Translations under genes and position numbers: made by a program
Notes under the pieces: generated by a model
What the model saw: the letters and a program-made list of their open reading frames with translations, nothing else
Database searches by the model: none
Told to the model about the DNA's origin: nothing
Shown: positions 13,376 through 28,870 of the stretch, piece by piece
Position numbering within the stretch: the first letter of the stretch is position 1
How the letters are laid out: each line of letters starts with the position of its first letter
Source: a bacterium endosymbiont of Escarpia laminata
GTDB lineage: Bacteria > Pseudomonadota > Gammaproteobacteria > Chromatiales > Chromatiaceae
DNA: 64,000 bases
Assembly (NCBI GenBank): GCA_003660235.1
Contig: QGON01000071.1
Location: 248,001 to 312,000, forward strand
Direction of reading: 5' to 3'

Positions 13376-13446
13376 ATCTCACCCCCGAAAAAAACCCCGA
13401 AAATAAACGCCGTTTTCTGGAAAACCGGATCAGAGAACAATTTACT

Positions 13447-13741
13447 CTAATATTCCCCGTCTGTTGTTTTTCTCGGGCGCCCTAGCTTACCTAAGCGCGT
13501 CCGTCGATTTGTCATGGCCTCGATTTCTTCCACCTTCAGATCCCTGCGCCTATGCACCACGGCCAGCACAAAAAATGCCCTGATCCTTGATCTCGTAGAT
13601 GATCCGGTAGGAGTGGAGGAATAACTCCCTGACAGTTTCATCTTTGGAAGTAAATGCAGGCAAATCTATGCCTGTATGGCACACCATCTCTGCTGAAAGT
13701 CCTCGAAATACGAGGGAGGTATTGGTGGCGGGAATCGCCAC
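13447..13741 (-). pseudogene. ParE/RelE-type toxin remnant, frameshifted
   Basis: Two minus-strand frames join into one ParE-like sequence: ETVRELFLHSYRIIYEIKDQ ends in GIF, and the other frame continues FVLAVVHRRRDLK. This is the conserved second half of ParE toxins, which poison gyrase. The frames meet at a six-A run (plus strand 13570-13575); five would restore the reading. The N-terminal third does not look like ParE, so the gene is also truncated. No antitoxin gene is visible beside it. It lies between tRNA-Lys and the left island boundary. Confidence 0.65.
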
Positions 13742-13827: not shown

Positions 13828-13851
13828 TGGTGCCGAGGAGAGGACTTGAAC
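13828..13851 (-). repeat. Left attachment site (tRNA-Leu 3' end copy)
   Basis: This is an exact 24-base copy of the 3' end of the tRNA-Leu gene at 28784-28807, including the T-arm sequence and CCA. The match ends abruptly on the inner side (CTACCATT here against CCTCCACG at the tRNA), as expected for an attL or attR core. Confidence 0.88.
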
Positions 13852-14028: not shown

Positions 14029-14987
14029 CTATAATTCGCCTATATGCTTCTGGATCTTTTCCAGAATGGTATCGAAAGGAATTTGCTCGCCGAAGTAAAG
14101 TGAAGCCGTTGCCTGGTAGGCGAGGGTGTACTGCTTCCTGATCACTGGATCCGATAAAAGAAATGCTTCGTTTTCGGCGATGATCAGGTTGTCGTCTTTT
14201 CTGAAGCGGTGCTCCTTCTCCGTGCCTGGTACTCCGGGGTGCCTATGAATGTGGTCACATCAGGATGCTCCAGGAGTTGGCCAATGTCGTAATAGTGACG
14301 GAGGAAGTTCGGCGGCATTTCTCCATTGTCCTGTTGCTGGCGGAATTTGGTGGAGACGGTTTGCAGCTTTTCCACAAAGGTATAACCGGGGTGATAGCAG
14401 GGAACGTCGATCGCTCGGTTATCTGCGAAGGTAATGTCGGTTTCCGAGGCCCTGTCAAAGGCCCATGAAGAAATTGTCCGGGACATGTTCGGCAGGGTGT
14501 CATCGAACCCGACTTCCAGCAGGATACCTTCCTTAAGACCGGCCGGATTTTCGAAGGCGCTTTCGTAATGCAAACGGATGCCGCCACTCCGGTATTTCAC
14601 ATCATCGAAGGCATGATCGCGAACGATGCTGATAATGCCTGCGATTTGAATGGTATCCGCGAGCCAGTCATAGAACTGCTTTCTGGATTCGATATGCCGG
14701 GATTTCTTGGTTTGATTCGGCGCAGAGAAGACCTCGAAAGGGGCGCATGCCGGATCAATGCGGATATCGATGTCTTCCGAGAATCGCTGGATGATGTCGA
14801 AGCCCTTGGATAGTGAGGTGCCGCCCTTTAGCTCGAAGCTGAATCCTTGTCTGCCCAGGCCATACAGACAGTGCATGATCCAGTAGTCTTTTTCCACCAG
14901 CACCGGCAATAGGTTGCGTTCGCTGGCAACGACCCGGATCAGATCGGAAAAGTCAGATCGTTCATGCAGGTAGGGGTCAGGCGGCAT
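14029..14987 (-). pseudogene. AbiEii-type nucleotidyltransferase toxin, frameshifted
   Basis: From ATG 14987 (MPPDPYLHERSDF) the frame runs through the AbiEii/AbiGii nucleotidyltransferase signature LKGGTSLSKGFDIIQRFSED then IDIRID, to a stop at 14184. Family-like sequence continues in another frame from about 14215: KEHRFRKDDNLIIAENEAF, ending GEQIPFDTILEKIQKHIGEL at 14029. The shift lies near 14214-14222 and is not in a homopolymer. The start overlaps the upstream antitoxin gene by 11 bases. In type IV systems this toxin class transfers nucleotides and is countered by AbiEi. Confidence 0.72.
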
Positions 14988-15558
14988 CAGCCAATACCTG
15001 ATCGAAGAATTTGCGGGTGGCGACCTTGCCATAGTTGCGGGCGGCCAGTCGGAGCTTACTGGCGTTCAGCTCTTTCGCTTTTGCACGTGCGCGCGAACGA
15101 AGCGCTTCAGTGTCTTCTGCAAGCGTAGGTAAATTATTCAGAAGATCTACGAGCAGGAATTCTTCCGAGAGTTTCCGGGGGAAGCGGGGTTTCCGGCGGA
15201 ATTCGAAGGAGAGGCCACCCAGCGTGAAGCGCCCATGGCGCTTGTGGTTATAGACGACACGGTTGTTGTAGAGCTGTGTGGTACCCAAGCCCAGGGTGTT
15301 GTAGGCGTTCGGTGAGGTGAGCAGAAAGTCATCCTCTTTCAGGAAACTGCGTACCAGTTCCCGCTCGTCTGCTGGTACCCGGCCAAAAACGGAAGCCTTA
15401 GGATAGTAATACAGGCCGTTCTGAAGTTTCTGCAGCACACCCTCATCAACAAGCTCACGTGCATGCCGGTCAACACTTTTCGACCATTGGGCCAGATCCG
15501 CGCGTCGGTACACACGGCCAGGGCGCAGGTGCTTTTTCAACTGATCCAAGCGTTTCAT
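14977..15558 (-). CDS. AbiEi-type antitoxin (DUF6088-like)
   Basis: The 193-residue protein begins with a winged-helix region: RPGRVYRRADLAQW, then VDEGVLQKLQNGLYYYPK. The rest matches the DUF6088/AbiEi antitoxin style. I prefer ATG 15558 over 15564 because the GAGGAA ribosome site is then at correct spacing. It is followed with overlap by the AbiEii-type toxin, as in type IV toxin-antitoxin operons. AbiEi proteins bind their own promoter, and the upstream region 15565-15819 carries repeated operator-like elements shared with a divergent second module. Confidence 0.78.
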   Translation of the reverse strand: MKRLDQLKKHLRPGRVYRRADLAQWSKSVDRHARELVDEGVLQKLQNGLYYYPKASVFGRVPADERELVRSFLKEDDFLLTSPNAYNTLGLGTTQLYNNRVVYNHKRHGRFTLGGLSFEFRRKPRFPRKLSEEFLLVDLLNNLPTLAEDTEALRSRARAKAKELNASKLRLAARNYGKVATRKFFDQVLADAA

Positions 15559-15688
15559 TGCCATTTCCTCTGATAGGGAATATAGCCTCTATCGGTAGAT
15601 ATGACAATAAAATTATTAAAAATTCATGCATAATAATTATTAAAGCCGCCGTTCATCCAACGCCCACGCTTCGATATTGGACAATTCT

Positions 15689-15803
15689 TGTCAAAACCCC
15701 AGGATTTGTTAGGTGTAACAGCATGAATTGACAAGTGCTTGGGCTGGTTGACAAAGTCAGTCTATACCCCTAAATTATTTAGGTGTAGCGACATATATTG
15801 TCA
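15689..15803 (+). promoter_or_regulatory. Duplicated promoter/operator of the second AbiE module
   Basis: TTGACA (15748-15753), a 17-base spacer and TAAATT (15771-15776) form a strong promoter. Two 25-base imperfect direct repeats beginning TTAGGTGTA and ending ATTGWCA lie at 15709-15733 and 15779-15803 (19 of 25 identical); the second covers the likely transcription start. A TTGTCA at 15689 precedes the first copy, suggesting a duplicated promoter-operator unit. AbiEi antitoxins autoregulate by binding such repeats. Confidence 0.6.
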
Positions 15804-15819
15804 ATCATGTGTGGTGGTC

Positions 15820-16626
15820 ATGAAGGTTCAAGACTTTTTCAGCGAGAATCCGGTATTCCGGCATGAGGCCTTTGTAGCCTTCCTGGAATCAACCGGCTCG
15901 CACCGGACGAAGACGCGGGAGGCGCTGCTTGCCTATCACGGCAAGGCAGGGCACCTGCTGCGGCTCCGCCGTGGCCTGTATGCTGTCGTTCCCCGGGGAT
16001 TCGCTCCCGAGGATTACCCGGTCGATCCCTACCTGTTGGCAGGGCATCTCGCAGTGGATGCAGTGCTGTCCTATCACAGTGCATTGCAGTTTCACGGCAA
16101 GGCCTATTCTGTGCATCATCGGTTTACCTATCTCACCCGGAATGCCCGACGGCCTTTCGTCTTTCGTGGACAGGAATTCGTTGCTATTCCGTTTCCCAGA
16201 GTGCTGCACGCCCAGCAGGCCGAACTGTTCGGGGTCACGACTCAACGGCATGCTGGGGGAGAGGTTCGCGTGACCAGTCTGGAGCGTACACTGGTCGATG
16301 TGCTGGTCCGCCCGGATCTGGGCGGTGGCTGGGAGGAGGTTTGGCGATCGCTTGAGTCTGTGGAGTACTTCGACCTGGATCAGGTGATCGACTATACGTT
16401 GAAGTTGCGTAGTGCAACCGCAGTGGCAAAGGTCGGGTTCTTTCTCGAACAACACCGTGATGCACTGATGGTGGATGAAACCCATTTGGTGTCGCTGCGT
16501 AAGCATGTGCCCAAACAGCCTTGTTATCTGGAACGTAGCCGCCGAACAGCCGGCAAGCTGGTTCCCTCCTGGAACCTCGTGGTACCGTTGGATGTCCTTG
16601 AGCATACATGGGAGGAGGCTGGGTGA
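15820..16626 (+). CDS. AbiEi family antitoxin/transcriptional regulator
   Basis: From ATG 15820 (MKVQDFFSENPVFRHEAF) the product is 268 residues. An N-terminal winged-helix region (GHLLRLRRGLYAVVPRG) is followed by the AbiEi core (VDPYLLAGHLAVDAVLSYHSAL) and the conserved VTSLERTLVDVLVRPDLGGG. The upstream open frame is ignored because it crosses the promoter. The stop overlaps a GTG start of a truncated toxin gene (GTGA), the usual AbiE arrangement. It is divergent from the first AbiE module. The antitoxin may now be orphaned. Confidence 0.82.
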   Translation: MKVQDFFSENPVFRHEAFVAFLESTGSHRTKTREALLAYHGKAGHLLRLRRGLYAVVPRGFAPEDYPVDPYLLAGHLAVDAVLSYHSALQFHGKAYSVHHRFTYLTRNARRPFVFRGQEFVAIPFPRVLHAQQAELFGVTTQRHAGGEVRVTSLERTLVDVLVRPDLGGGWEEVWRSLESVEYFDLDQVIDYTLKLRSATAVAKVGFFLEQHRDALMVDETHLVSLRKHVPKQPCYLERSRRTAGKLVPSWNLVVPLDVLEHTWEEAG

Positions 16627-17024: not shown

Positions 17025-17252
17025 ATGGTTGAGATGGAAGACCGCTGGTTATCAATAACTGAGATATGCAAATACCTCGGGGTCAGCAATGACACGGTAT
17101 ATAAGTGGATCGACAAGCATGGCATGCCTGCCCACAGGATGGGGCGTCTCTGGAAATTCAAGAAAGATGCCGTAGATGCGTGGGTAGAAGCAGGTGGGGC
17201 TGATCAGACAAACAGGAGCGGAATGAACGGAGCTAAAAATGGCCGGCCATGA
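17025..17252 (+). CDS. Excisionase-type HTH DNA-binding protein
   Basis: The 75-residue protein is a MerR/excisionase-like winged helix: WLSITEICKYLGVSNDTVYK, then WIDKHGMPAHRMGRLWKFKK and DAVDAWV. The natural start may be the fourth codon (MEDRW). Its stop lies 14 bases inside the helicase gene, so it leads the same transcript. Such small proteins commonly head restriction-like operons as regulators; because the island lacks an integrase, an excision role is less likely. Confidence 0.8.
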   Translation: MVEMEDRWLSITEICKYLGVSNDTVYKWIDKHGMPAHRMGRLWKFKKDAVDAWVEAGGADQTNRSGMNGAKNGRP

Positions 17253-20200
17253 AACCGATCTGACTTTTTTCACTAATGATAAAAACCAGACCCTGCTGGA
17301 TCGGTTCAAGGCGACCCTTGCCGATACCCGGCTGTTTGACGTATTGGTCGGTTATTTCCGTGCCAGTGGTTTTTACCAGCTTTACGACAGCATTGAGTCC
17401 ATTGAGAAAACCCGCATATTGGTCGGCTTGGGAATTGATGATGAATCTTATCGCGCAATCGATGCTTTCCGCTCTCAGGCACTACTCGACTTTGAATCAC
17501 ACAAGAACGCCAAGGCCACTTTCCAGGATAATCTGATCAACGAAATTGAGAGTTCTGAGGAGTTTGATGACAAACTGGAGTTGGGGCTGAAAAAATTCAT
17601 CGAATTCCTGCAAGCGGATTGCCCAGATCCAGCAAATGACCGCGAACAAGGTGGCAGTGGTAAGAAGCTCGAAATCCGCGCCTTCCCCTCCCGGAACATT
17701 CACGCCAAGGTCTATATCGGTCGGTTCGCCCCTGATGACCGGGACTATGGTTTTGTGATAACCGGATCGAGCAACTTCTCCTATTCCGGCCTGGTCGCAA
17801 ACCGTGAGTTCAATGTCGAGCTGCGCCAGAGCCGGGATGTCGAATACGCACTGGATCAATTTGAAGAGCTTTGGCGGCAGTCAGTTGATATTTCTGATGA
17901 CTTCATTGACGCAGTGCAAAAAAAGACCTGGCTAAACGATTCCATTACCCCCTTCGAGCTTTACCTGAAACTTATTTATGAATACATGCAGGAAGACATC
18001 AACCTGCAGGATCACATGGAGATTTTCCTGCCTGAAGGCTTTATGTCCCTGCAATACCAGCAACAGGCGGTACAGCAGGCGCTGAAAAAACTGAACGAGC
18101 ATAATGGCGTCTTCCTTGCCGACGTGGTGGGCCTCGGTAAGACCTTTATCACCGCCCAGCTTTTGCAACAACTCAAGGGTCGGATTCTGGTGATATGCCC
18201 GCCGGTGCTACAGGGGTATTGGGAAGAGAGTCTGCATGATTTTCGTGTGCCGGCCCGTGTGGAGTCGTTAGGCAAGCTGGAAAAGGTCATCCGCTTTGGG
18301 CTCGATCGTTTTGATTACATCGTGGTCGACGAAGCGCACCGCTTCCGCAACGAGGCGACCCGTTCCTATGCCGACCTGCTTGATATTTGTCGGGGCAAAA
18401 AGGTGATTCTGGTGACGGCAACCCCACTCAACAATACTATTGATGACATCTTCGCCCAGCTTAAGCTCTTTCAAGCGCCCAAGAACTCAACCATTCCTGG
18501 AATACCCAACCTGGAACGTTTTTTCACCACCCAGCGCAAACGCTTCAAGGGACTTGATCGGGATGATCCTGGATATAAAGAAGCCATCAAGGCGGTCTCC
18601 CGCGAAATCCGTGAACGCATTCTAAAACACGTCATGGTGCGGCGTACGCGAACAGATGTAGTCACCTATTTCAAGAAAGATACCGAAACCCAGGGTCTGT
18701 TCTTTCCTGAGCTTCAAGACCCACGGCGCATTGTTTACGAATTTGAAGGCGAACTGGAAAGGATCTTTAACCAAACCATCGGCTTACTTCAAGGTTTTCG
18801 CTACGCCCGCTATATCCCGCTGTTGTATTACTGCGGCAGCAAGCAGCTTTCAGAGTTTGAGCGCCAGCAGCAGCGTAATGTCGGCGGCTTTATGAAAGGC
18901 ATTCTGATCAAGCGTCTGGAAAGCAGCTTCCATGCCTTTCGCCGGAGTATCGGCCGCTTCATTGAATCCTACGAACGTTTTATCGCCATGCTCGATGAGG
19001 GAACGGTCTATATCAGCAAGGACATAGATGTTTACGAACTGTTGGATAACGACGATTTCGATACGCTGGAAAACCTTGTCGAAGAAGAAAAGGCGCAGAA
19101 GTATGGCGCCAGGGACTTCCGCAATGAATTCGCTGATGACCTGCAACATGATCTAGACACCCTGCGCCAGATCGAGACGCTCTGGCGCAGGGTGAACGAG
19201 GACCCCAAGATTGAATCCTTTATCAGGCAACTCAGAGAAGATGATGACCTGAAGCAACACCGGCTGCTTGTGTTTACCGAATCAAAGGAAACGGGCGACT
19301 ATCTTTTCGAGCAGTTAAACCGCCACTATCCCGGCAAGGTGATGTTTTTCAGCAGTGGAGGCGGTCGCGCAGGCGACCCTTCTGTTACTCACAACAAGAC
19401 CCTGGCGCGCGACATGATCAAAGCGGCCTTCGATCCCAACCAGAAGGAGAGCAATGACGAGCTGCGTATCCTGATTGCCACCGATGTGCTGTCAGAGGGA
19501 ATCAATCTTCACCGGGGCAATGTATTGATCAATTACGACCTCCCCTGGAACCCCACAAGAGTTTTGCAACGGGCTGGCCGTATCAATCGTCTTGGCACCG
19601 AATACCCGGAACTGTTTATCTACAACTTCTTCCCCACCACCCAGTCCGATGAACATCTGGGGCTGGAGACCAATATCACCAACAAGATTCAGATGTTCCA
19701 CGATATTTTGGGTGAGGATGCCAGATACCTGACTGATGGTGAGGAGATAGGCAGCCAGGAGCTGTTCGATACCCTGAACCGCAAATCAGCCTACACCGGA
19801 GAAGATGAAGAGGGGGATTCGGAGCTGAAATATCTGGAGATGATGCGAGAGCTGCGCGATGAACAGCCGGAACTGTTTGAAAAGATCAAGCGGCTGCCAA
19901 AAAAGGCGCGTTCCGGACGCAAGGCAGAGCATGTTCCTGCCGATCAACTCGTCACATTCTTCCGCATTGGCCCATTGAAGAAGTTTTATCTTAATGAGGG
20001 GGGTGAAAGCCGCGAGATCACTTTCTTCGAAGCGGTCAATGAACTGGAATGCGAACCCGATACACCCAGACACCCCATTCCCGCAGATTACTACCATTGG
20101 CTGGAGACCAACAAGCAGCGTTTCGCCCAGGATACCCTGCAGGATGAACAACCGGCCGGTGGTGGAGGTGGCCGTTCCAATGTCGGTTATATCGAAAAAC

Positions 20201-20496
20201 GCCTTAAAGACAAAGTGTTCCGTAATTGCCAGAAGTTTACCGACACCGATGAAGAGTTCATCGACGGCGTCAAACGCATGATTGCCCAAGGCTTGATGGC
20301 AAAGAAAACCGCACAGACCATCAAAAAGGCCTTTGAAAAGACCCTTGATCCGTTGGAAATGGTCACCATACTACGCGAGCATATCCGCACCCTGGCAACT
20401 GCGGAACGCTCGTCATCACAGCAAATGCAGACCAGGCGGGAAATTATTCTCTCTGGTTATCAGGTTGCGGGTGCGACGGAAGGACAGCAGGAATAA
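17239..20496 (+). CDS. PLD-domain SNF2 helicase
   Basis: The 1085-residue protein has an N-terminal phospholipase D-like domain (residues about 15-215) with HAKVYIG (His155, Lys157) and GSSNFSYSG (176-184), one HKD-type half-site. A superfamily 2 helicase follows: VVGLGKTF (296-303), VVDEAHRF (362-369), VTATPLNNT (392-400), and late motifs ATDVLSEGINL and QRAGRINRLG at about 745-790. The C-terminal 280 residues are unassigned. It likely moves along or remodels DNA, with the PLD domain able to cut if it dimerises. It is translationally linked to the preceding HTH gene and lies 3 bases before the methylase. Confidence 0.88.
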   Translation: MAGHETDLTFFTNDKNQTLLDRFKATLADTRLFDVLVGYFRASGFYQLYDSIESIEKTRILVGLGIDDESYRAIDAFRSQALLDFESHKNAKATFQDNLINEIESSEEFDDKLELGLKKFIEFLQADCPDPANDREQGGSGKKLEIRAFPSRNIHAKVYIGRFAPDDRDYGFVITGSSNFSYSGLVANREFNVELRQSRDVEYALDQFEELWRQSVDISDDFIDAVQKKTWLNDSITPFELYLKLIYEYMQEDINLQDHMEIFLPEGFMSLQYQQQAVQQALKKLNEHNGVFLADVVGLGKTFITAQLLQQLKGRILVICPPVLQGYWEESLHDFRVPARVESLGKLEKVIRFGLDRFDYIVVDEAHRFRNEATRSYADLLDICRGKKVILVTATPLNNTIDDIFAQLKLFQAPKNSTIPGIPNLERFFTTQRKRFKGLDRDDPGYKEAIKAVSREIRERILKHVMVRRTRTDVVTYFKKDTETQGLFFPELQDPRRIVYEFEGELERIFNQTIGLLQGFRYARYIPLLYYCGSKQLSEFERQQQRNVGGFMKGILIKRLESSFHAFRRSIGRFIESYERFIAMLDEGTVYISKDIDVYELLDNDDFDTLENLVEEEKAQKYGARDFRNEFADDLQHDLDTLRQIETLWRRVNEDPKIESFIRQLREDDDLKQHRLLVFTESKETGDYLFEQLNRHYPGKVMFFSSGGGRAGDPSVTHNKTLARDMIKAAFDPNQKESNDELRILIATDVLSEGINLHRGNVLINYDLPWNPTRVLQRAGRINRLGTEYPELFIYNFFPTTQSDEHLGLETNITNKIQMFHDILGEDARYLTDGEEIGSQELFDTLNRKSAYTGEDEEGDSELKYLEMMRELRDEQPELFEKIKRLPKKARSGRKAEHVPADQLVTFFRIGPLKKFYLNEGGESREITFFEAVNELECEPDTPRHPIPADYYHWLETNKQRFAQDTLQDEQPAGGGGGRSNVGYIEKRLKDKVFRNCQKFTDTDEEFIDGVKRMIAQGLMAKKTAQTIKKAFEKTLDPLEMVTILREHIRTLATAERSSSQQMQTRREIILSGYQVAGATEGQQE

Positions 20497-20499
20497 CCC

Positions 20500-23400
20500 A
20501 TGGACAAGAGACAGGCCCAACAATCCATTAGCGAACTATTCACCCAGCCATTTGATCGAGGGCGTTATCAGCATTTTTTGAATAATCTGCTCAATCGATA
20601 TGAGCCACGAAATGGCCACTATACGGGTAACTACATACCCGATGCCTACAAACAGCATATCAAGCAATACTGGCGCATAGGTAAATATCAAGACCCGGAA
20701 GGCGATGAACTGGATCTGCTGGTGGTCCAGGTCAAATCACTCAGCAAGCTGGAACGGGCCCGCTCTGCGCTGCGTAACTTCGCTGTCACTCGCTTGAAAC
20801 AGTTTGAAAAAGAGGTATCGTTGATTGCCTTCTACTCCGAAGATGACCAAGGTGCTGACTGGCGCTTCTCCTTCGTCAAGATAGAGCACGAAGCCTATAA
20901 GGACGGCAAGGGCAAGGGCAAGGTCAAGCTCAGGCAGGAACTGACACCTGCAAAACGTTACTCCTATCTGGTGGGCGTGCACGAAAACAGCCACACCGCC
21001 AGCAAGCAGTTATTGCCGCTGCTGGAGATGGACTATGCCGACCCGCGTATCGAAGAGATAGAGGCGGCCTTTAGTATCGAGAAGGTCACCGATGAGTTCT
21101 TCGAGCAATACAAGGCGCTGTTCCAGAATCTTGCGGAGCATCTAAAAAACCAGCCGTTGTTCAATAAAGCCGATGATGAAGAGCGGGCTCAGCAGGTCAG
21201 CCGCTTCGCCAAAAAGCTGCTGGGCCAGATCGTATTTCTCTATTTTCTGCAAAAGAAGGGCTGGCTGGGGGTCGCCAAAGGTGAGAAATGGGGAACAGGA
21301 AGCAAACGCTTTATGCGCGAGCGCTTCGAGCAGGTGTCTGAACAAAATGGCGACTATTACCACGACTTTCTGCAATACCTCTTCTACGAAGCCTTGGCGG
21401 ATGAGCGCAAGGGGCAGAATGATCCTGGCTACTACGCCCGTTTTAATTGTCGGGTGCCTTTTCTCAACGGCGGTCTGTTTGAACCAGACTATGAGTGGCA
21501 AAAGGAACATATAGACCTGCCCAACACCTTTTTTCACAACACGGAGAAAAACAAAAACGGTGATGTCGGTACCGGCATTCTGGATGTCTTCGGCCGCTAC
21601 AACTTCACTATCAAGGAAGACGAACCGCTGGAAAAGGAAGTGGCGGTGGATCCGGAGATGCTGGGCAAGGTGTTCGAGAACATGCTCGAAGTCACCGAGC
21701 GTAAGAGCAAGGGGGCGTTCTACACCCCCCGTGAGATTGTTCACTACATGTGTCAGGAGAGCCTGATCCACTATCTGGATAACCGGCTCAACCACTATGC
21801 TTCCACGCCGGAGTTGTCCGAGCCACAGGCGGATATCTTTGGCAGCCCGGGTGGGCAGCAGAGCCTGGGGGATGGCGAAGACATAAGAGTTCTAAAAGAT
21901 GATCTGGAAACACTGATCCGCAAGGGCCATTTATTTATTGAAAATGATGAAGCAGCGCTTCGGGCTCTTGAGCGTATTGAAAAAGGCAAACAGAAAACGA
22001 CTAAACATAAAATTGAGCTTCCGGATTCCGTAAAGGAAAACGCCAAGGCGATTGATGAGGCCCTGGCCGATATCAAGGTCTGCGATCCGGCCATTGGTTC
22101 CGGTGCCTTTCCGGTGGGCCTGTTACACGAGATCGTCAACGCCCGGCTGGCACTTGCGCCCCACAGTGGAAACAGCCAGAGTGCCTATGAACTCAAGCGC
22201 CATGCCATTAGTGAGAGCCTCTACGGCGTAGATATCGACGCCTCAGCCATAGACATTGCCCGCTTGCGCCTGTGGTTATCGCTGATCGTGGATGAGGAGG
22301 ATTATGATACGATCGAGGCACTACCCAATCTGGATTACAAGATTGTGCAGGGGGATTCACTAGTGGGCTTTCCTGAAAACTGGAAGAGTCCGGCGTTTGA
22401 CAAAATCGAGCGACTCCAGAAGCTCTATTTTCCAGAGACCGACCACGATAAAAAGGCTGTGCTTAAACAACAGATCGATGCTGAAATTCGGCAGCGGCTT
22501 GATGGTTCCCAACAGACCTTCGGCTGGCAGGTTAATTTTGATTTCCGACTGTTTTTCCCGGATATTTGGCATCAGAAAGATGGCTTTGATGTTGTTATCG
22601 GCAACCCGCCCTATGTACAGATCCAGAAATTTTCCGGTCAGCAGATTCAGAAAGAGTGGGAGGAACAGAACTATGAAACCTTTGCCAAAACCGGCGATGT
22701 CTACTGCCTTTTCTACGAAAAGGGGCATCGGATATTGTGTAATCAAGGCATTCTGACCTTCATCACCTCCAATAAATGGATGCGTGCGGGATATGGCAGG
22801 AAACTGCGGCAGTTTTTCCTGAACCAGACTAGCATTGATCAGCTACTCGACTTCGGGGATTCTCAAATCTTCTCGGAAGCGACAACTTACACCAATGTCC
22901 TGCTGTTTGAAAAGACCAAAAAGGAACATACGCCCAAGGCTTGGGATCTTTCTTCTGCTTATCGTGAAGCAGCCTCGCTGGTACGCATGCTGGATGAGAA
23001 TCCATCCGGTGCTGCGCTTTTTAATGAAGAAGGTTTTGTGATTGCTCCAGCGGAGATGGCTGCAATCAAAAAACAGATTGAAAAGGTGGGTACGCCGCTT
23101 AAGGATTGGGATATTGCAATCAATTACGGCATTAAAACCGGCTTCAACGAGGCCTTTACCATTGATGGTAAGAAAAAGGATGAACTGATTGCGCAAGATC
23201 CAAAAAGTGCCGAGATCATCAATCCCATTTTGCGTGGACGGGACATCAAACGCTACCGAATAGATTTTGCGGATTTGTGGTTGATCAACACCCACAATGG
23301 TTACGGGAAAACACCACCCATCGACGTAACAAATTACCCAACAATCAAGACATACCTTGACCAATTTCTGCCAAAATTGACAAAGCGAAAGGATAAGGGT

Positions 23401-24027
23401 GTAACTCCATATAACCTCAGAAACTGTGCATACTTGGAGAAGTTTGAGAAGGAGAAGATTTTTTGGCTTGAGATGTCTCCTATACCGAATTTTGCATTTT
23501 CAGCAGAAGAAGTATTCATCTTAAATACCTCATATATCCTCACGGGTGAAAAGCTCAAGTGGGTATTGGCAATACTCAATTCATCGGTGCTGGATTGTTA
23601 TTTTCCGCTAATATCTACCGATGTGCGGGGCAAAACCAGACGCTATTTTAAGCAGTACGTAGAATTGCTGCCTATCCTGCCTTATGAGAGTAGTTACGCA
23701 GACTTCCTTGAACCATTGGTGGACTACTCTCGAATCGCCAAGGAAACAGAGCAGAAACTCCAATCCGCCTATTTCGAACAACTCATTGACGGCCTGGTCT
23801 ATGAACTCTACTTCCCCGATGAAATCAAGGCTGCCAACAAGGAAATCCTCCCTCATCTGGGCGAGCTGACCCCCATCACCGACCACATGGCCGAAGAAGA
23901 AAAACTCGCCACTATCCAGCGCGGGTTCGACCGCCTCTACGACCCCCGCCACCCGGTACGAAACAACCTGGAAACTCTGGATAGCGTGGAAGTGGTCAGA
24001 ACCATCCGTGAGGCGTTGAAGCGATGA
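20500..24027 (+). CDS. Eco57I-type adenine methyltransferase
   Basis: The 1175-residue protein has an N-terminal domain of about 350 residues (with GDELDLLVVQVKSL at about 67-80), then GAFYTPREIVHYM, SAM motif I DPAIGSGAFPVG (about 529-540) and catalytic motif IV GNPPYVQIQ (about 700-708), placing it with N6-adenine DNA methylases of the Eco57I class. The C-terminal part (about 850-1120) is probably the DNA target recognition domain. I see no clear PD-(D/E)xK nuclease site, so it may modify only, leaving cleavage to the helicase partner. It shares ATGA with the next gene. Confidence 0.9.
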   Translation: MDKRQAQQSISELFTQPFDRGRYQHFLNNLLNRYEPRNGHYTGNYIPDAYKQHIKQYWRIGKYQDPEGDELDLLVVQVKSLSKLERARSALRNFAVTRLKQFEKEVSLIAFYSEDDQGADWRFSFVKIEHEAYKDGKGKGKVKLRQELTPAKRYSYLVGVHENSHTASKQLLPLLEMDYADPRIEEIEAAFSIEKVTDEFFEQYKALFQNLAEHLKNQPLFNKADDEERAQQVSRFAKKLLGQIVFLYFLQKKGWLGVAKGEKWGTGSKRFMRERFEQVSEQNGDYYHDFLQYLFYEALADERKGQNDPGYYARFNCRVPFLNGGLFEPDYEWQKEHIDLPNTFFHNTEKNKNGDVGTGILDVFGRYNFTIKEDEPLEKEVAVDPEMLGKVFENMLEVTERKSKGAFYTPREIVHYMCQESLIHYLDNRLNHYASTPELSEPQADIFGSPGGQQSLGDGEDIRVLKDDLETLIRKGHLFIENDEAALRALERIEKGKQKTTKHKIELPDSVKENAKAIDEALADIKVCDPAIGSGAFPVGLLHEIVNARLALAPHSGNSQSAYELKRHAISESLYGVDIDASAIDIARLRLWLSLIVDEEDYDTIEALPNLDYKIVQGDSLVGFPENWKSPAFDKIERLQKLYFPETDHDKKAVLKQQIDAEIRQRLDGSQQTFGWQVNFDFRLFFPDIWHQKDGFDVVIGNPPYVQIQKFSGQQIQKEWEEQNYETFAKTGDVYCLFYEKGHRILCNQGILTFITSNKWMRAGYGRKLRQFFLNQTSIDQLLDFGDSQIFSEATTYTNVLLFEKTKKEHTPKAWDLSSAYREAASLVRMLDENPSGAALFNEEGFVIAPAEMAAIKKQIEKVGTPLKDWDIAINYGIKTGFNEAFTIDGKKKDELIAQDPKSAEIINPILRGRDIKRYRIDFADLWLINTHNGYGKTPPIDVTNYPTIKTYLDQFLPKLTKRKDKGVTPYNLRNCAYLEKFEKEKIFWLEMSPIPNFAFSAEEVFILNTSYILTGEKLKWVLAILNSSVLDCYFPLISTDVRGKTRRYFKQYVELLPILPYESSYADFLEPLVDYSRIAKETEQKLQSAYFEQLIDGLVYELYFPDEIKAANKEILPHLGELTPITDHMAEEEKLATIQRGFDRLYDPRHPVRNNLETLDSVEVVRTIREALKR

Positions 24028-25490
24028 CGATCGACAGGCCAGAAGAATATTTGATCAGCCTGGTTCGCGAACTGTGTAAGCTGCCCGGTGAAACCGAATG
24101 GCTTGAGTTCAAACATAATAATGATGATCCGGAAGAGATCGGTGAATATCTTTCCGCCCTGGCAAATGCAGCCGCGCTTCTGGGCAAGGTCAATGCTTAT
24201 ATGGTCTGGGGTATTGACGATGAGACGCATGGCATCATAGGTACTACATTTCGGCCAGGTTCTGCCAGGGTCGGTGGAGAAGAGCTGGAAAACTGGCTCT
24301 TGCGTCTGCTCTCCCCGAAAATCAATTTCCGGTTTTATGAACTGGTCGTTGAAGGTCAGTCATTGGTTCTGCTGGAGATCGGCGCGGCTTTCCGCCATCC
24401 GGTACGCTTTAAGGGTACCGAGTTTATTCGGGTTGGCTCCTATAAGAAAAAACTCAAGGACTTCCCGGAAAAGGAGCGCGAGTTATGGCGCGTATTCGAC
24501 CAGACACCCTTTGAAAGGGAAATCGCGGCGGAAAATATTTCCGCCGACGAATTACTTCAACTCCTGGACTATCCCGCCTATTTCGATCTGCTGTCTCTTC
24601 CTTTACCGGAAGGTCGTGAAGGCGTCCTTGCAGTGCTTGCAGCGGATGAAATGATTGCGACTGGCAAAGGCGGCAAATGGAATATTACTAACTTGGGTGC
24701 AGTGTTGTTTGCAAAAAAGTTCGGGGATTTTCGGAATATGAAGAGAAAAGCCGTGCGGGTCATTTTATACACGGGTGAAAGCCGGGTAGAAACCATCCGT
24801 GAACAGGAAGGTACGAAAGGCTATGCCTCTGGGTTTGAAGGATTGATTGGTTTTATTACCAACCTGTTGCCGAGTAACGAAGTGATTGGCCCGGCATTAC
24901 GTAAGGAAGTACCTATGTTTCCGGAACTGGCCATCCGTGAGCTGGTTGCCAATGCTATTATCCATCAGGACTTTCACGCAACTGGCACTGGTCCGATGGT
25001 CGAGATATTTTCCAATCGTATGGAAATTACAAACCCTGGCTTGCCGCTGGTTCAGACGGACCGGTTTCTGGATAGTCCACCCAAATCACGCAATGAGGCC
25101 ATTGCATCCTTTATGCGGCGAATCGGTGTCTGCGAGGAGCGTGGTAGTGGTGTTGATAAGGTTGTTTTCCAGACCGAGCTATATCAACTGCCGGCGCCTC
25201 TTTTCGAGACCACGGTAGAACATACCAGGGCTGTGCTATTCGGTCACCGTGAGTTCAGGGAGATGGACAAGGATGATCGGATTCGCGCCTGCTATCTTCA
25301 TGCCTGCCTGAAGTATGTTCAACGTGATTTTATGACCAATACCACCCTGCGAGAGCGGTTTGGGATTGAAGAGAAGAACAGCTCAATGGCCTCAAGAATC
25401 ATCCGGGATACCATTGAGGCCGGCCTCATCCGCTGCCACGATGAAACCGTCGGCAGCAAGGCCAGGAAATATCTGCCGTGGTGGGCGTGA
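24024..25490 (+). CDS. AlbA_2 / Schlafen-like ATP-binding protein
   Basis: The 488-residue protein begins with an AlbA_2 (Schlafen-like, DUF4062-adjacent) domain: ETEWLEFKHNN, ALANAAALLGKVNAYMVWGI. A GHKL-type ATP-binding domain follows with ELAIRELVANAIIHQDF (about 300-316) and GSGVDKV. A winged helix lies at the C-terminus (LRERFGIEEKNSSMASRIIR). Such proteins are usually annotated as putative transcriptional regulators and recur in defence operons. It overlaps the methylase by 4 bases, so it is part of the same unit. Confidence 0.85.
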   Translation: MTIDRPEEYLISLVRELCKLPGETEWLEFKHNNDDPEEIGEYLSALANAAALLGKVNAYMVWGIDDETHGIIGTTFRPGSARVGGEELENWLLRLLSPKINFRFYELVVEGQSLVLLEIGAAFRHPVRFKGTEFIRVGSYKKKLKDFPEKERELWRVFDQTPFEREIAAENISADELLQLLDYPAYFDLLSLPLPEGREGVLAVLAADEMIATGKGGKWNITNLGAVLFAKKFGDFRNMKRKAVRVILYTGESRVETIREQEGTKGYASGFEGLIGFITNLLPSNEVIGPALRKEVPMFPELAIRELVANAIIHQDFHATGTGPMVEIFSNRMEITNPGLPLVQTDRFLDSPPKSRNEAIASFMRRIGVCEERGSGVDKVVFQTELYQLPAPLFETTVEHTRAVLFGHREFREMDKDDRIRACYLHACLKYVQRDFMTNTTLRERFGIEEKNSSMASRIIRDTIEAGLIRCHDETVGSKARKYLPWWA

Positions 25491-25660
25491 TGGCAGCCAT
25501 TAATTTGCTTGACCGTTGCTTGACTGAGGTGGTCTTGATATGACGGCTTTCAACAAAAAGACGAGATAAAACAAATGGTTATTAAGCTATATTTGTTTGA
25601 CTGGAGTTTGATGGACACGCACGTTGCGGCAAAACCTGACAGAGAGGGTGGGAGCAAACA

Positions 25661-25845
25661 GTGACCAGTAATACAGAAAACAACAGCTCGGAGAGACAAC
25701 GCGCCCCGGTCTGGTCAATGCGGAGATCGCATTGAAGCGGGCGGCGCGAAAGGCGCGGGAAAACGCCCGGAAAACTGGGGTGCCGGTGGTGATTATGAAA
25801 GACGGAAAGATCATGGAAGAGCAAATCGGCAGCTATGCGCATTAA
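25661..25845 (+). pseudogene. Small basic protein, frameshifted start
   Basis: A GTG at 25661 opens MTSNTENNSSERQRAP; the downstream frame (open from 25672) reads GLVNAEIALKRAARKARENA then RKTGVPVVIMKDGKIMEEQ. One extra C in the CCCC run at 25704-25707 would join them into a protein of about 61 residues. The 3' end overlaps the ATPase ATG by 11 bases, indicating translational coupling. The composition (basic helix, then a short strand with VIMKDGKI) recalls small antitoxin-like proteins; no function is assigned. The rest of the gap 25491-25660 shows nothing coding. Confidence 0.55.
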
Positions 25846-27292
25846 GACCATTGAGATTACCAACTACAAGGCCTTTCTTGGCACGCACAAGATCAACGTG
25901 GGTGGCAAGAATCTCTTTATCTATGGTGAGAATGGCAGTGGTAAAAGCTCTCTGTACTATGCGCTGAAAGACTTTTTTCAGTCTTCCATCGAAGATATCG
26001 ACCTGAACGAACTCGAAAATGTCTTTGTCTCCGAAAAGAACAAGGGTAAAACAGCCATCAAGGTTGTTTTCAAGCCGAATAGCCAGAGTCAGAATAAATT
26101 ACAGGCTTATCACTTCAACACGAAGAAAAATGATACCTGTGCGACTGCTGATACCAGTATCCGCGATGGCAACAAGCTCAAGAGCTTTCTTACCTACAAG
26201 CATCTGCTGGCCATTCATCATCTGAAAAAAGACGAGACCATCAATCTTTTCGACCTGTTGGTGGGAGGCGTACTCAAGCATTTCAAGTACGCCCTGACCG
26301 GTGGCAGGGAACTGGGTGGATTGTGGTCAGATGTGGAGGATTCTATCGCCAGAACCACTGGCAAAGAGTTCCCCATCAACAAGAAAAAGGCGGATGTGAA
26401 TGCTGCCATCAAGGCGTTCAACGAAGCATTCGGTGAGTTGTTTAAACCGGGAAGTCCAGAATACATTCTGAAACATGCCAATCCCATTCTCGACCGATTT
26501 AACCACAATATTGATCTGAACCTACGCTTTGCCCAAGTGCGCCCGAGCAGTGACTATGCAACCTTTGAGGGTGCAGAAGTTCATGTGGAACTGGGCTATG
26601 CGGGCAAGCAGATCGACAAGCCGCACCTGTTCCTCAACGAGGCGCGCCTGTCAGCTATCGCGATCTCCGTTTACCTGGGTATGATCAAGCGCCATGTGCA
26701 GGGTATACCCTGCAAGGTGCTCTTCCTCGATGACATCTTCATCGGCCTGGATATCTCTAACCGCTTGCCGCTACTGAATATCCTTGAAACAGAGTTCCCT
26801 GACTACCAGATATTCATCACCACCTACGACAAGCCTTGGTTCGAATACGCCAAAGGGACGCTGGAGCAAAAGCTAGACTGGAAAACCATGGAGTTCTATG
26901 CCCAGCCTTGTGACGACGGCACTGAAGTGCCCATCATCTTCGATAATCAGGACTTGATTGCCAAAGCCAAATATCACCTTCAACAGTGCGATTACAAGGC
27001 TGCTGCTGTCTATACTCGATCCGCTTTCGAAAAGCTGATCCGTAAGCACTGTGAGAAAAAGAAAAAAGCAGTAATTTTCAAACCGCGCCTCAAGGACTAT
27101 ATGACCGAGGATTTCTGGAAAGTCATCAAAGATGATCTGGAAGAGACTACTCGAAACGAAATAGAAACCTATCGCCCGCTTGTACTGAACGCCTTCAGCC
27201 ACTACAACACCGAACGGCACGAAATAAAAACCGAGCTGGAAAGTGCAATCCTGGCCATCGATAAATTGAAGCAGGAACTGGCAGGCCTTTGA
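25835..27292 (+). CDS. AAA/ABC-type ATPase with C-terminal helical domain
   Basis: The 485-residue ATPase has Walker A GENGSGKSS at 31-39, a signature-like NEARLSAIAISVYLG, and Walker B KVLFLDDIFIGLD at about 293-305. It is RecF/SMC-like in the head but lacks a long coiled coil. The C-terminal 120 residues contain a HEPN-like helical stretch: AKYHLQQCDYKAAAVYTRSA followed by FEKLIRKHC. It probably acts as the sensor or switch of the helicase-methylase system. Start ATG 25835 overlaps the small upstream ORF. Confidence 0.85.
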   Translation: MRIKTIEITNYKAFLGTHKINVGGKNLFIYGENGSGKSSLYYALKDFFQSSIEDIDLNELENVFVSEKNKGKTAIKVVFKPNSQSQNKLQAYHFNTKKNDTCATADTSIRDGNKLKSFLTYKHLLAIHHLKKDETINLFDLLVGGVLKHFKYALTGGRELGGLWSDVEDSIARTTGKEFPINKKKADVNAAIKAFNEAFGELFKPGSPEYILKHANPILDRFNHNIDLNLRFAQVRPSSDYATFEGAEVHVELGYAGKQIDKPHLFLNEARLSAIAISVYLGMIKRHVQGIPCKVLFLDDIFIGLDISNRLPLLNILETEFPDYQIFITTYDKPWFEYAKGTLEQKLDWKTMEFYAQPCDDGTEVPIIFDNQDLIAKAKYHLQQCDYKAAAVYTRSAFEKLIRKHCEKKKKAVIFKPRLKDYMTEDFWKVIKDDLEETTRNEIETYRPLVLNAFSHYNTERHEIKTELESAILAIDKLKQELAGL

Positions 27293-27297
27293 ACAAA

Positions 27298-28545
27298 ATG
27301 AGTAACTCCGAAAAACACAAATGGACCTTCCCCACACGCTTTCGAACCGGCGCTTACAGCTGGAAGGCGTCCAGGCTGGCGTGCCAGCGCCTTCGCGAAG
27401 CCGTCTCCGAGATAAAAAAGGTTGCAAAGAAAGATCCTGTTCTTGGGGCGGAAGGCGCAGTCCGTCTGATGGAGAAGCTTTGGCCGGCGCTAGAGCACAT
27501 AGACACTTCCAGCGGAGCTCTGGGATCGGCCGTCAATAAAGCGCTGGATGCGTTGATACTCATCGTCGTCAAGGCACCTGCTGACGAGTATACTCGTAAC
27601 AAGTGGCTCGACCGGCTCTGGCAGGCCATGGCTGATGATGGAGTCGACTATCTCAGCCCGGTCGGTGACCGGTGGGGTGAGATCTGTGGCTCGGTGGAGG
27701 TTGCCGGGCGATGGGCCGATGATCTGGTTTCCTCGTTGCGATCCTGTTGGACGGATCCGAATCCAGGTAACTATTTCCACGGCACGACGGCGTGTTTGTC
27801 CTGTCTGCTGGTGGCGGGAAGACACCAGGAGTTGCTTGAGCTTTTGGAATTGGATCGGTATCCCATGTGGCATTACCGGCGCTATGGTGTCGAGGCACTC
27901 CTCGCCTTGGGCATGAAGGCGAAAGCCATCCAGTATGCCGAGGCCTCGCGGGGATTGAATCAGCCGGACTCGGCGATCGACCAGGTTTGTGAGGAGATCC
28001 TGATCTCTTCCAGCCTGCATGAGGAGGCCTATCAACGCTATGGGTTGAGCGCTGCAGTGAGTAACTCTTATATCGCCCGTTTCCGCGCGGTTGCGAAGCG
28101 CTATCCCATGAAGGACCCGTCACAGATTTTGGCCGACCTGATTGCCACGACGCCGGGAGAAGAGGGCAAATGGTTCGCCACGGCCAAGGATCTCAAGCTT
28201 TATGATCTGGCGCTGGAGTTAGCGAACCGAACCCTCTGTGATCCAAAAACGCTGACAAGGGCGGCAAGAGATTATCTCGATACGGAACCGGCATTTGCCC
28301 TCGGTTCCGCTATGGCTGCGCTTCGTTGGTTGAGTGAAGGCTGGGGCTACGAGGTAACGAGTGCCGATGTGGTAGAGGTCTATGACCGGGCGATGGATGC
28401 CGCAGACAGGTTGAATAAAATTGATGAGGTAACAGACCAGATTCGGCAACTCATCGAGTCGAATCAGAGTGCTTCAGTGTTGTTCGTTCGACAGGCTTTG
28501 CTCAGACGTATGCGTGCGCATCAGTCATCGATTAACGAAGTGTGA
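27298..28545 (+). CDS. Conserved helical protein of unknown function
   Basis: The product is 415 residues from ATG 27298, or 418 from a TTG at 27289 that overlaps the ATPase stop. It is almost entirely helical, with conserved-looking blocks EIKKVAKKDPVLGAEGAV, WPALEHIDTSSGALGSAVNK, NYFHGTTACLSCLL and ELLELLELDRYPMWHYRRYG. The pattern suggests a TPR-like scaffold. No catalytic motif is visible. It closes the operon after the ATPase and should be considered part of the same system. Confidence 0.72.
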   Translation: MSNSEKHKWTFPTRFRTGAYSWKASRLACQRLREAVSEIKKVAKKDPVLGAEGAVRLMEKLWPALEHIDTSSGALGSAVNKALDALILIVVKAPADEYTRNKWLDRLWQAMADDGVDYLSPVGDRWGEICGSVEVAGRWADDLVSSLRSCWTDPNPGNYFHGTTACLSCLLVAGRHQELLELLELDRYPMWHYRRYGVEALLALGMKAKAIQYAEASRGLNQPDSAIDQVCEEILISSSLHEEAYQRYGLSAAVSNSYIARFRAVAKRYPMKDPSQILADLIATTPGEEGKWFATAKDLKLYDLALELANRTLCDPKTLTRAARDYLDTEPAFALGSAMAALRWLSEGWGYEVTSADVVEVYDRAMDAADRLNKIDEVTDQIRQLIESNQSASVLFVRQALLRRMRAHQSSINEV

Positions 28546-28723: not shown

Positions 28724-28748
28724 AAAGCCCTGTAAAAACAGGGCCTTT
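28724..28748. terminator. Terminator hairpin downstream of tRNA-Leu
   Basis: GCCCTGT and ACAGGGC (28727-28733 with 28738-28744) form a 7-bp stem with an AAAA loop, flanked by AAA and CTTT, so it can work on both strands for the island operon and the minus-strand tRNA-Leu. Confidence 0.65.
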
Positions 28749-28783
28749 CATTACTTTTGGTGGTCTGTGATGGTTTTTCAATT

Positions 28784-28807
28784 TGGTGCCGAGGAGAGGA
28801 CTTGAAC
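28784..28807 (-). repeat. Right attachment site inside tRNA-Leu
   Basis: The last 24 bases of tRNA-Leu, from the T arm to CCA, are identical to 13828-13851. The insertion keeps the tRNA intact. Confidence 0.88.
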
Positions 28808-28870
28808 CTCCACGGGGTTGCCCCCACATGCACCTGAAGCATGCGTGTCTACCAATTTCACCACCTCGGC
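28784..28870 (-). tRNA. tRNA-Leu (CAG)
   Basis: The 87-base minus-strand gene has acceptor GCCGAGG/CCTCGGC, a long variable arm, anticodon stem CATGC/GCATG and loop TTCAGGT giving CAG, and encoded CCA. Its 3' end is the island attachment site and is repeated at 13828-13851. Confidence 0.96.

Follow-up and report, generated by a model that had tools for sequence, protein, structure and literature searches.

Which of the genes between positions 17,025 and 28,545 of the window, a 64,000-nucleotide stretch of contig QGON01000071.1 from a bacterial endosymbiont of Escarpia laminata, belong together? An initial annotation had taken seven neighbouring open reading frames (ORFs) for a single candidate defence system: a helix-turn-helix (HTH) gene, a PLD helicase, a methylase, an AlbA_2 protein, a small ORF, an ATPase and a helical protein. 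Comparison with related loci points to a defence-type operon with a single slot gene beside four conserved ones, and not to a seven-gene system. With moderate confidence we regard it as a restriction-modification (R-M)-like defence operon in which an HTH gene, a PLD-SNF2 helicase, an Eco57I-type methylase, a cargo slot and an ABC ATPase act in the way proposed below.

Relatives of the window methylase were collected by scanning one genome per species. The scan covered 84,980 species and yielded 548 stretches encoding a relative, of which the best 80 were kept. This choice favours close relatives of the window methylase, and the window's own loci (L001 and L002) are excluded from the counts. 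The helicase was found in 73 of the 80 loci. ATPase matches were present in 41, one of them a mere fragment (L004), and an ATPase could be placed downstream of the methylase in 40, with partial or interrupted copies in L005, L019, L024, L036 and L062. Helicase and methylase lie 3 base pairs (bp) apart in the window and less than 60 bp apart in 48 of 73 loci, including 33 of the 37 that bear an ATPase. A gap of at least 60 bp was seen in 25 of the 73, often with extra genes and mostly in loci devoid of the ATPase (for example L023, L027, L039, L041, L047, L048 and L060). The methylase–ATPase junction is therefore not the sole place for cargo.

At the other end of the operon, the HTH gene overlaps the helicase start by 14 bp. 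An ORF of 45–130 amino acids (aa) ends no more than 60 bp from the helicase start in 29 of 63 relatives. About 20 of these ORFs appear HTH-like by eye, mostly of the XRE type, and the type present in the window has a match in one of the 80 methylase loci (L082). The order HTH–helicase–methylase–slot–ATPase makes up the conserved unit, in which the HTH gene is exchangeable and the ATPase occurs only in part of the helicase tree. The PLDc_2 match covers helicase residues 143–212 (Pfam), and H155, K157, S177, S178 and N179 are kept in all 63 aligned relatives. No helicase relatives were found in viral contigs by pattern search.

The features are collected in Table 1. Protein scans used Pfam (E up to 0.01, on nine window proteins), PADLOC (25 best hits per protein) and NCBIfam. 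Slot contents were assigned with Pfam and PADLOC on representatives and by clustering for the remaining loci.

Table 1. Features of the island and contents of the slot between methylase and ATPase in related loci
Feature	Position or loci	Strand	Basis or remark
Left copy of 24-bp exact direct repeat (att-like)	13828..13851	+	equals tRNA-Leu 3′ end
HTH gene, excisionase/MerR-like, probable regulator	17025..17252	+	Pfam HTH_17, 63 bits
PLD (HKD) nuclease + SNF2 helicase, 1085 aa	17239..20496	+	PLDc_2, SNF2, Helicase_C
Eco57I-type adenine methylase with TaqI_C specificity domain, 1175 aa	20500..24027	+	Eco57I, TaqI_C
Slot gene: SLFN/AlbA_2 + HATPase_c_4 protein, 488 aa	24024..25490	+	Pfam
37-aa TTG ORF, relic of slot ORF	25732..25845	+	aligns with part of intact 64-aa ORF of L008
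ABC ATPase, RecF/SMC/Rad50-type head + C-terminal domain with R395-x3-E399, N452, S455, H456	25835..27292	+	Pfam, alignment, model
Protein without family match, passenger by tRNA-Leu	27289..28545 (ATG at 27298)	+	outside operon
Right copy of 24-bp repeat	28784..28807	+	3′ end of tRNA-Leu(CAG) 28784–28870 (−)
Slot: GmrSD_N + HNH	L016, L020, L021, L033; plus other genes in L034, L040, L044		
Slot: McrB + McrC	L015, L018, L029		
Slot: PDC-M23 pairs with HamB-like helicase	L061, L044		
Slot: Abi_2/AbiD	L010		
Slot: Zeta-type kinase	L008		
Slot: Bro-N/PDC-S13	L024		
Slot: ResIII-type helicase	L075		
Slot: HSP70 + UvrD-like + GmrSD	L011		
Slot: AlbA_2	L019, L031		
Slot: IS200-type ORF	L062		
Slot: unannotated 101-aa ORF	L054		
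Slot: no ORF of 100 aa	L081		

Most genes found in the slot belong to known or candidate defence types. In 19 of the 40 ATPase loci the slot is tight, with the ATPase at most 51 bp behind the methylase; in the other 21 it is 305–8255 bp wide. In the window, the AlbA_2 gene overlaps the methylase end by 4 bp and lies 344 bp from the ATPase. The same kind of gene occupies the same place in two of the 80 loci (L019 and L031), and seven others have weaker AlbA_2 matches. On the helicase tree the slot label changes at least 12 times. In L015, L029 and L034, for instance, the helicases are 98% identical, and the slot holds McrBC in the first two versus an AlbA_2-cluster gene with GmrSD-HNH in the third; the methylases of these loci are 65–77% and the ATPases 66–84% identical. 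Embedded defence genes are known from other systems: TgvAB sits in a type I R-M operon, GmrSD-like genes in Hma (both PMC11411939, the second as cited there) and auxiliary effectors in BREX and BR systems (PMC12839542).

The nearest relative of the window is L008, with a helicase 90%, a methylase 62% and an ATPase 75% identical. There, an intact 64-aa ORF overlaps the end of the Zeta-type gene by 4 bp; in the window, AlbA_2 is followed by a broken piece of that ORF. This piece is the only plus-strand small ORF between AlbA_2 and the ATPase that reaches the ATPase. It is frame-broken relative to the L008 ORF, which is its single match among the 80 loci. Plasmids yielded no match to the 64-aa ORF, and a single locus is therefore the basis for linking it to the Zeta-type gene. 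We read the AlbA_2 gene and the small-ORF relic as the probable fossil of a cargo exchange.

How might such an operon work? It is probably an anti-phage cluster that marks the DNA of its host cell and attacks unmarked DNA, all activities being predicted. The methylase would mark host DNA at a site set by its exchangeable region. The SNF2 motor would act on unmarked DNA, to be cut by the PLD nuclease that the helicase carries. The ATPase would serve as a sentinel of the PrrC/RloC kind: on sensing DNA ends or a failure of the first line, its ABC head would free a HEPN-like C-terminal RNase, which would stop growth. The slot gene, here AlbA_2/Schlafen-like, may add a further effector or regulator. 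The putative helical gene and the broken small ORF would have no part in the mechanism. This mode of action is proposed to resemble those of Type-2 BR/Hma and of PrrC-guarded R-M.

At the level of sequence, the comparison demonstrates a conserved gene order, kept PLD, SNF2, methylase and Walker motifs, a variable specificity region and varied slot genes. More tentatively, the operon may belong to an unnamed family with the order HTH–(HKD-SNF2 helicase)–(Eco57I methylase of exchangeable specificity)–cassette slot–(ABC ATPase bearing an RloC-like RNase domain). Such a family would combine restriction as its first line with an in-built sentinel of the anticodon-nuclease type and a methylase–ATPase exchange site that swaps whole modules (McrBC, GmrSD-HNH, PDC-M23, Abi_2, Zeta, AlbA_2) between operons with near-identical helicases, the fossil of one swap being kept in the window.

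The role of sentinel is suggested by the C-terminal domain of the ATPase. We aligned the ATPases of 34 of the 36 listed loci with that of the window (L024 was dropped for an internal stop and L040 omitted). The domain carries the pattern R-x3-E…N-x2-S/N-H, with R395, E399, N452 and H456 in 35 of 35 sequences and a serine before the histidine in 32. Past position 366, these four residues and L478 are the only invariant ones. The motif of RloC and PrrC is Arg-X3-Glu-X36-52-His, and RloC loses its activity when this motif is mutated (PMC2610378); PrrC serves as a second line of defence within an R-M operon (PMC3710099). The C-terminal residues resemble this anticodon-nuclease triad, and we predict an RNase function with about even confidence.

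Several results weigh against the R-M-like operon with a sentinel ATPase. The spacing from E to H is 56–65 in these ATPases versus 36–52 in RloC, and AAA_13 gave no match to the ATPase in Pfam at E up to 0.01. Profile comparison with three RloC-like C-termini scored no better than shuffles. A comparison with 18 RloC-like sequences (26 loci fetched, 24 examined, 18 kept with frames of at least 680 aa) reached a probability of 4% over 9 columns, yet stood above 30 column shuffles. Additionally, 40 of the 80 loci have no placed ATPase, which means that the ATPase is not essential to helicase and methylase. The R-M label would also be compatible with a plain type IIG enzyme.

Alternatively, the ATPase could be the subunit that loads or loops DNA within the restriction complex, similar to RecF or DndD, with C-terminal helices that are structural and not an RNase. 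The structure matches listed for the ATPase are to a RecF/SMC/Rad50-type head, and Pfam reports SMC_N, AAA_15 and other P-loop families. A HEPN domain is proven by no solved-structure or profile match. However, the four residues invariant besides L478 are polar and stand in the order of the known RNase triad. We consider a purely DNA-loading subunit rather unlikely.

It might also be that helicase and methylase alone form the restriction system, with the ATPase and the slot genes, AlbA_2 included, as independent defence cargo that only shares the transcription unit. The helicase–methylase pair does occur without the ATPase in an outer branch of the helicase tree, and the wide helicase–methylase junctions described above would fit cargo as well. 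The tree (FastTree, 63 helicases of at least 1000 aa) was labelled by hand: 35 tips with ATPase, L004 among them, 16 without and 12 unlabelled because of too little sequence past the methylase. ATPase presence requires 4 changes versus a mean of 13.9 in 500 shuffles, none of which was as low; near relatives alone can produce part of this clustering. A re-search of 22 ATPase-less loci with 36 ATPases returned no match in 21, the L004 fragment being the only one. Two points speak against independent cargo: loci with the ATPase cluster on the tree, and the gene holds its position with respect to the methylase even as slot genes vary. We regard this explanation as unlikely.

A further alternative concerns the methylase, which could be a self-sufficient type IIG restriction enzyme with the PLD-helicase as an auxiliary. 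PDLC03596 matches methylase residues 1–1107 with 951 bits, as a full-length type IIG-type polypeptide. A type IIG enzyme that needs no partner seems improbable to us. Methylase N-termini were aligned for 66 of the 73 listed loci and the window. In support of the R-M-like operon, the window methylase compared with L008 in blocks of 100 columns is 74–89% identical, and only 13–33% in its specificity region (residues about 690–1070), while the helicases of the two loci are 90% identical. Likewise, L015, L029, L034 and L005/L006 have helicases 95–98% identical and methylases just 65–77% identical. Near-identical helicases with divergent methylases suggest frequent exchange in the methylase.

The last gene of the stretch tells a different story. 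The putative helical gene, judged by its distribution, belongs to mobile elements and is outside the operon. At the limits used, searches of Pfam, PADLOC, NCBIfam, PHROGs and PDB sequences gave no match to its protein, and the gene is present in none of the 80 core methylase loci. Matches were found in 15 of 369 genomes of the class, its own one included. Of the 20 matches, six are free of stops and span at least 90% of the query; the other 14 are partial, and several of them contain stops. In L114, L115 and L117 the gene lies 108–183 bp from the 3′ end of a tRNA-Leu(CAG), versus 238 bp in the window, and none of the core genes occurs in the stretches fetched around it. In L118 and L119 it lies about 3–4 kb from a tmRNA gene. 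On plasmids pBIL and pBVIE02 it is flanked by an integrase and by tnpC of a Tn3-type element, and on other plasmids it has other neighbours. Neither the core methylase nor the core ATPase has a match in 13 loci of this gene, where other core-type matches are limited to part of a helicase (L119) and an HTH (L084). No relatives of the protein were found in viral contigs by pattern search.

A constant 4-bp coupling of the helical gene to its upstream gene was considered and dropped; the TTG start merely opens the longest frame. Elsewhere in the same genome (L120, contig C11, 6360–7503), a fragment of the gene overlaps the preceding ORF by 4 bp. That ORF looks like a PIN-type toxin by eye and stands behind an antitoxin-like ORF.

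One undescribed seven-gene system, as the initial annotation proposed, is highly improbable: the window genes lie on one strand and mostly close together, but the helical gene, linked to tRNA-Leu elsewhere, occurs in none, the small ORF in one and AlbA_2 in the same place in two of the 80 loci, and for the helical gene the proposal is already refuted, barring linkage in a wider sample. Position and character were as annotated for six of the seven ORFs, the small one being a frame-broken relic. The first four genes overlap or are separated by 3 bp, AlbA_2 and the ATPase by 344 bp. The expected co-occurrence of the last genes with the first was found for the ATPase and failed for the helical gene.

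Is the remaining operon a member of a known system? Membership in Hma, Type-2 BR, MADS, DISARM and Pbe was rejected, with defining parts missing or below cut-off. Type-2 BR and Hma, like the operon here, have a DNA methylase and an ATPase together with a Swi2/Snf2 helicase that bears an HKD nuclease at its N-terminus (PMC12839542, PMC8565338). The window helicase carries the hallmark of Type-2 BR, an N-terminal HKD nuclease on an Snf2 helicase, and Hma shares embedded GmrSD-like genes (as cited in PMC11411939). The window differs in its ABC ATPase and Eco57I/TaqI_C methylase. Pfam at E up to 0.01 gave no match of DUF499 (HmaC) to the ATPase, and none of DUF3780, the standalone protein of Type-2 BR, among the nine window proteins, smaller ORFs being outside the scan. 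The HmaA profile scores 75.6 bits on the helicase (residues 544–787 only) versus 179.3 for C3a139. The grouping with Hma made in the initial annotation is thus unsupported.

PrrC and RloC resemble the window in the ABC head, the R-x3-E…H past it and the R-M-like operon (PMC3710099, PMC2610378), whereas the window ATPase has no AAA_13 match and a longer E-to-H spacing, and its operon has no type I hsd genes. Class I DISARM and ARMADA (PMC12458937) also place an SNF2-type helicase beside an adenine methylase. DrmD scores 145 bits on the helicase with the PADLOC profile, and its equivalog score of 163.7 does not reach the cut-off of 610; unlike in these systems, the nine scanned window proteins include neither a DrmB-type protein nor a second helicase. 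The MADS equivalogs also remain below cut-off (MAD1, 75.5 vs 80; MAD2, 15.9 vs 720). In Pbe/CxC-ABC, a fusion of HKD and SF2 helicase occurs with an ABC ATPase and a small protein, and sometimes with methylases (PMC10853773). In contrast, the 485-residue model of the window ATPase has no long coiled coil, its longest helices being 21–22 residues; no separate DndE-like gene was seen in the window, and its small ORF is a relic of slot cargo. TgvAB offers a parallel for defence genes between the genes of a restriction operon (PMC11411939), but the host operon here is HKD-SNF2, Eco57I methylase and ABC ATPase, with cargo that changes between near-identical helicases.

PADLOC, the check suggested at the outset, listed no dedicated system among the 25 best hits per protein. 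In a literature search we recognised no description of this gene set; an earlier one is possible. What is new is a variant of helicase–methylase–ATPase, R-M-like defence, the embedding of cargo itself being already known from other systems.

The operon lies on an island of about 15 kb between the two repeat copies. Guanine-cytosine (GC) content in 2-kb windows is 0.48–0.54 on the island and mostly 0.53–0.60 around it, with another dip at 51–57 kb. A direct repeat of a tRNA 3′ end is the usual trace of integration at a tRNA. No integrase was found by PADLOC, Pfam or NCBIfam among the nine scanned proteins between the copies, smaller ORFs being outside the scan. Lower GC and the repeat bear out the island claimed by the initial annotation, and its candidate defence operon with PLD-helicase, methylase and ATPase is likewise supported. 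Among 38 relatives, a close helicase was found only in the window's own genome, the next best match being 30% identical; among 398 genomes of the phylum, so was the methylase at E up to 1e-150.

The left part of the island holds an AbiEii/AbiEi pair on the minus strand (14184–15564, PADLOC) and, apart from this pair, a plus-strand gene of the AbiEi type (15739–16626); AbiE-type PADLOC hits at 14184–16626 reach 196–350 bits. In the one-contig relative G373, about 2.46 Mb separate the counterparts of the island flanks (window 13377 and 28724–28784; at 1.16 and 3.63 Mb in G373), which places the island at a rearrangement breakpoint between the two genomes. A stretch of about 112 bp, at about 13419–13533, recurs on contigs C13 and C19 of the same genome with 92–93% identity. 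In G373, which is of the same genus, another island (L167, 1644–9169) stands beside the same tRNA-Lys cluster, about 9–16 kb away. It encodes an AlbA_2 protein, a type III methylase, DUF4391 and an SNF2 helicase of the C3a139 (HKD+Snf2) type. AlbA_2 proteins thus accompany more than one kind of helicase–methylase pair.

If the proposed reading is true, separating a conserved four-gene unit from changeable cargo would give a set of profiles with which genomes can be scanned. The helicase–methylase–ATPase group would gain a PLD-helicase system that relies on methylase marking and may include an RNase sentinel. The methylase–ATPase slot would also be a place to seek uncharacterised defence genes, for example in L011, L044, L054 and L075.

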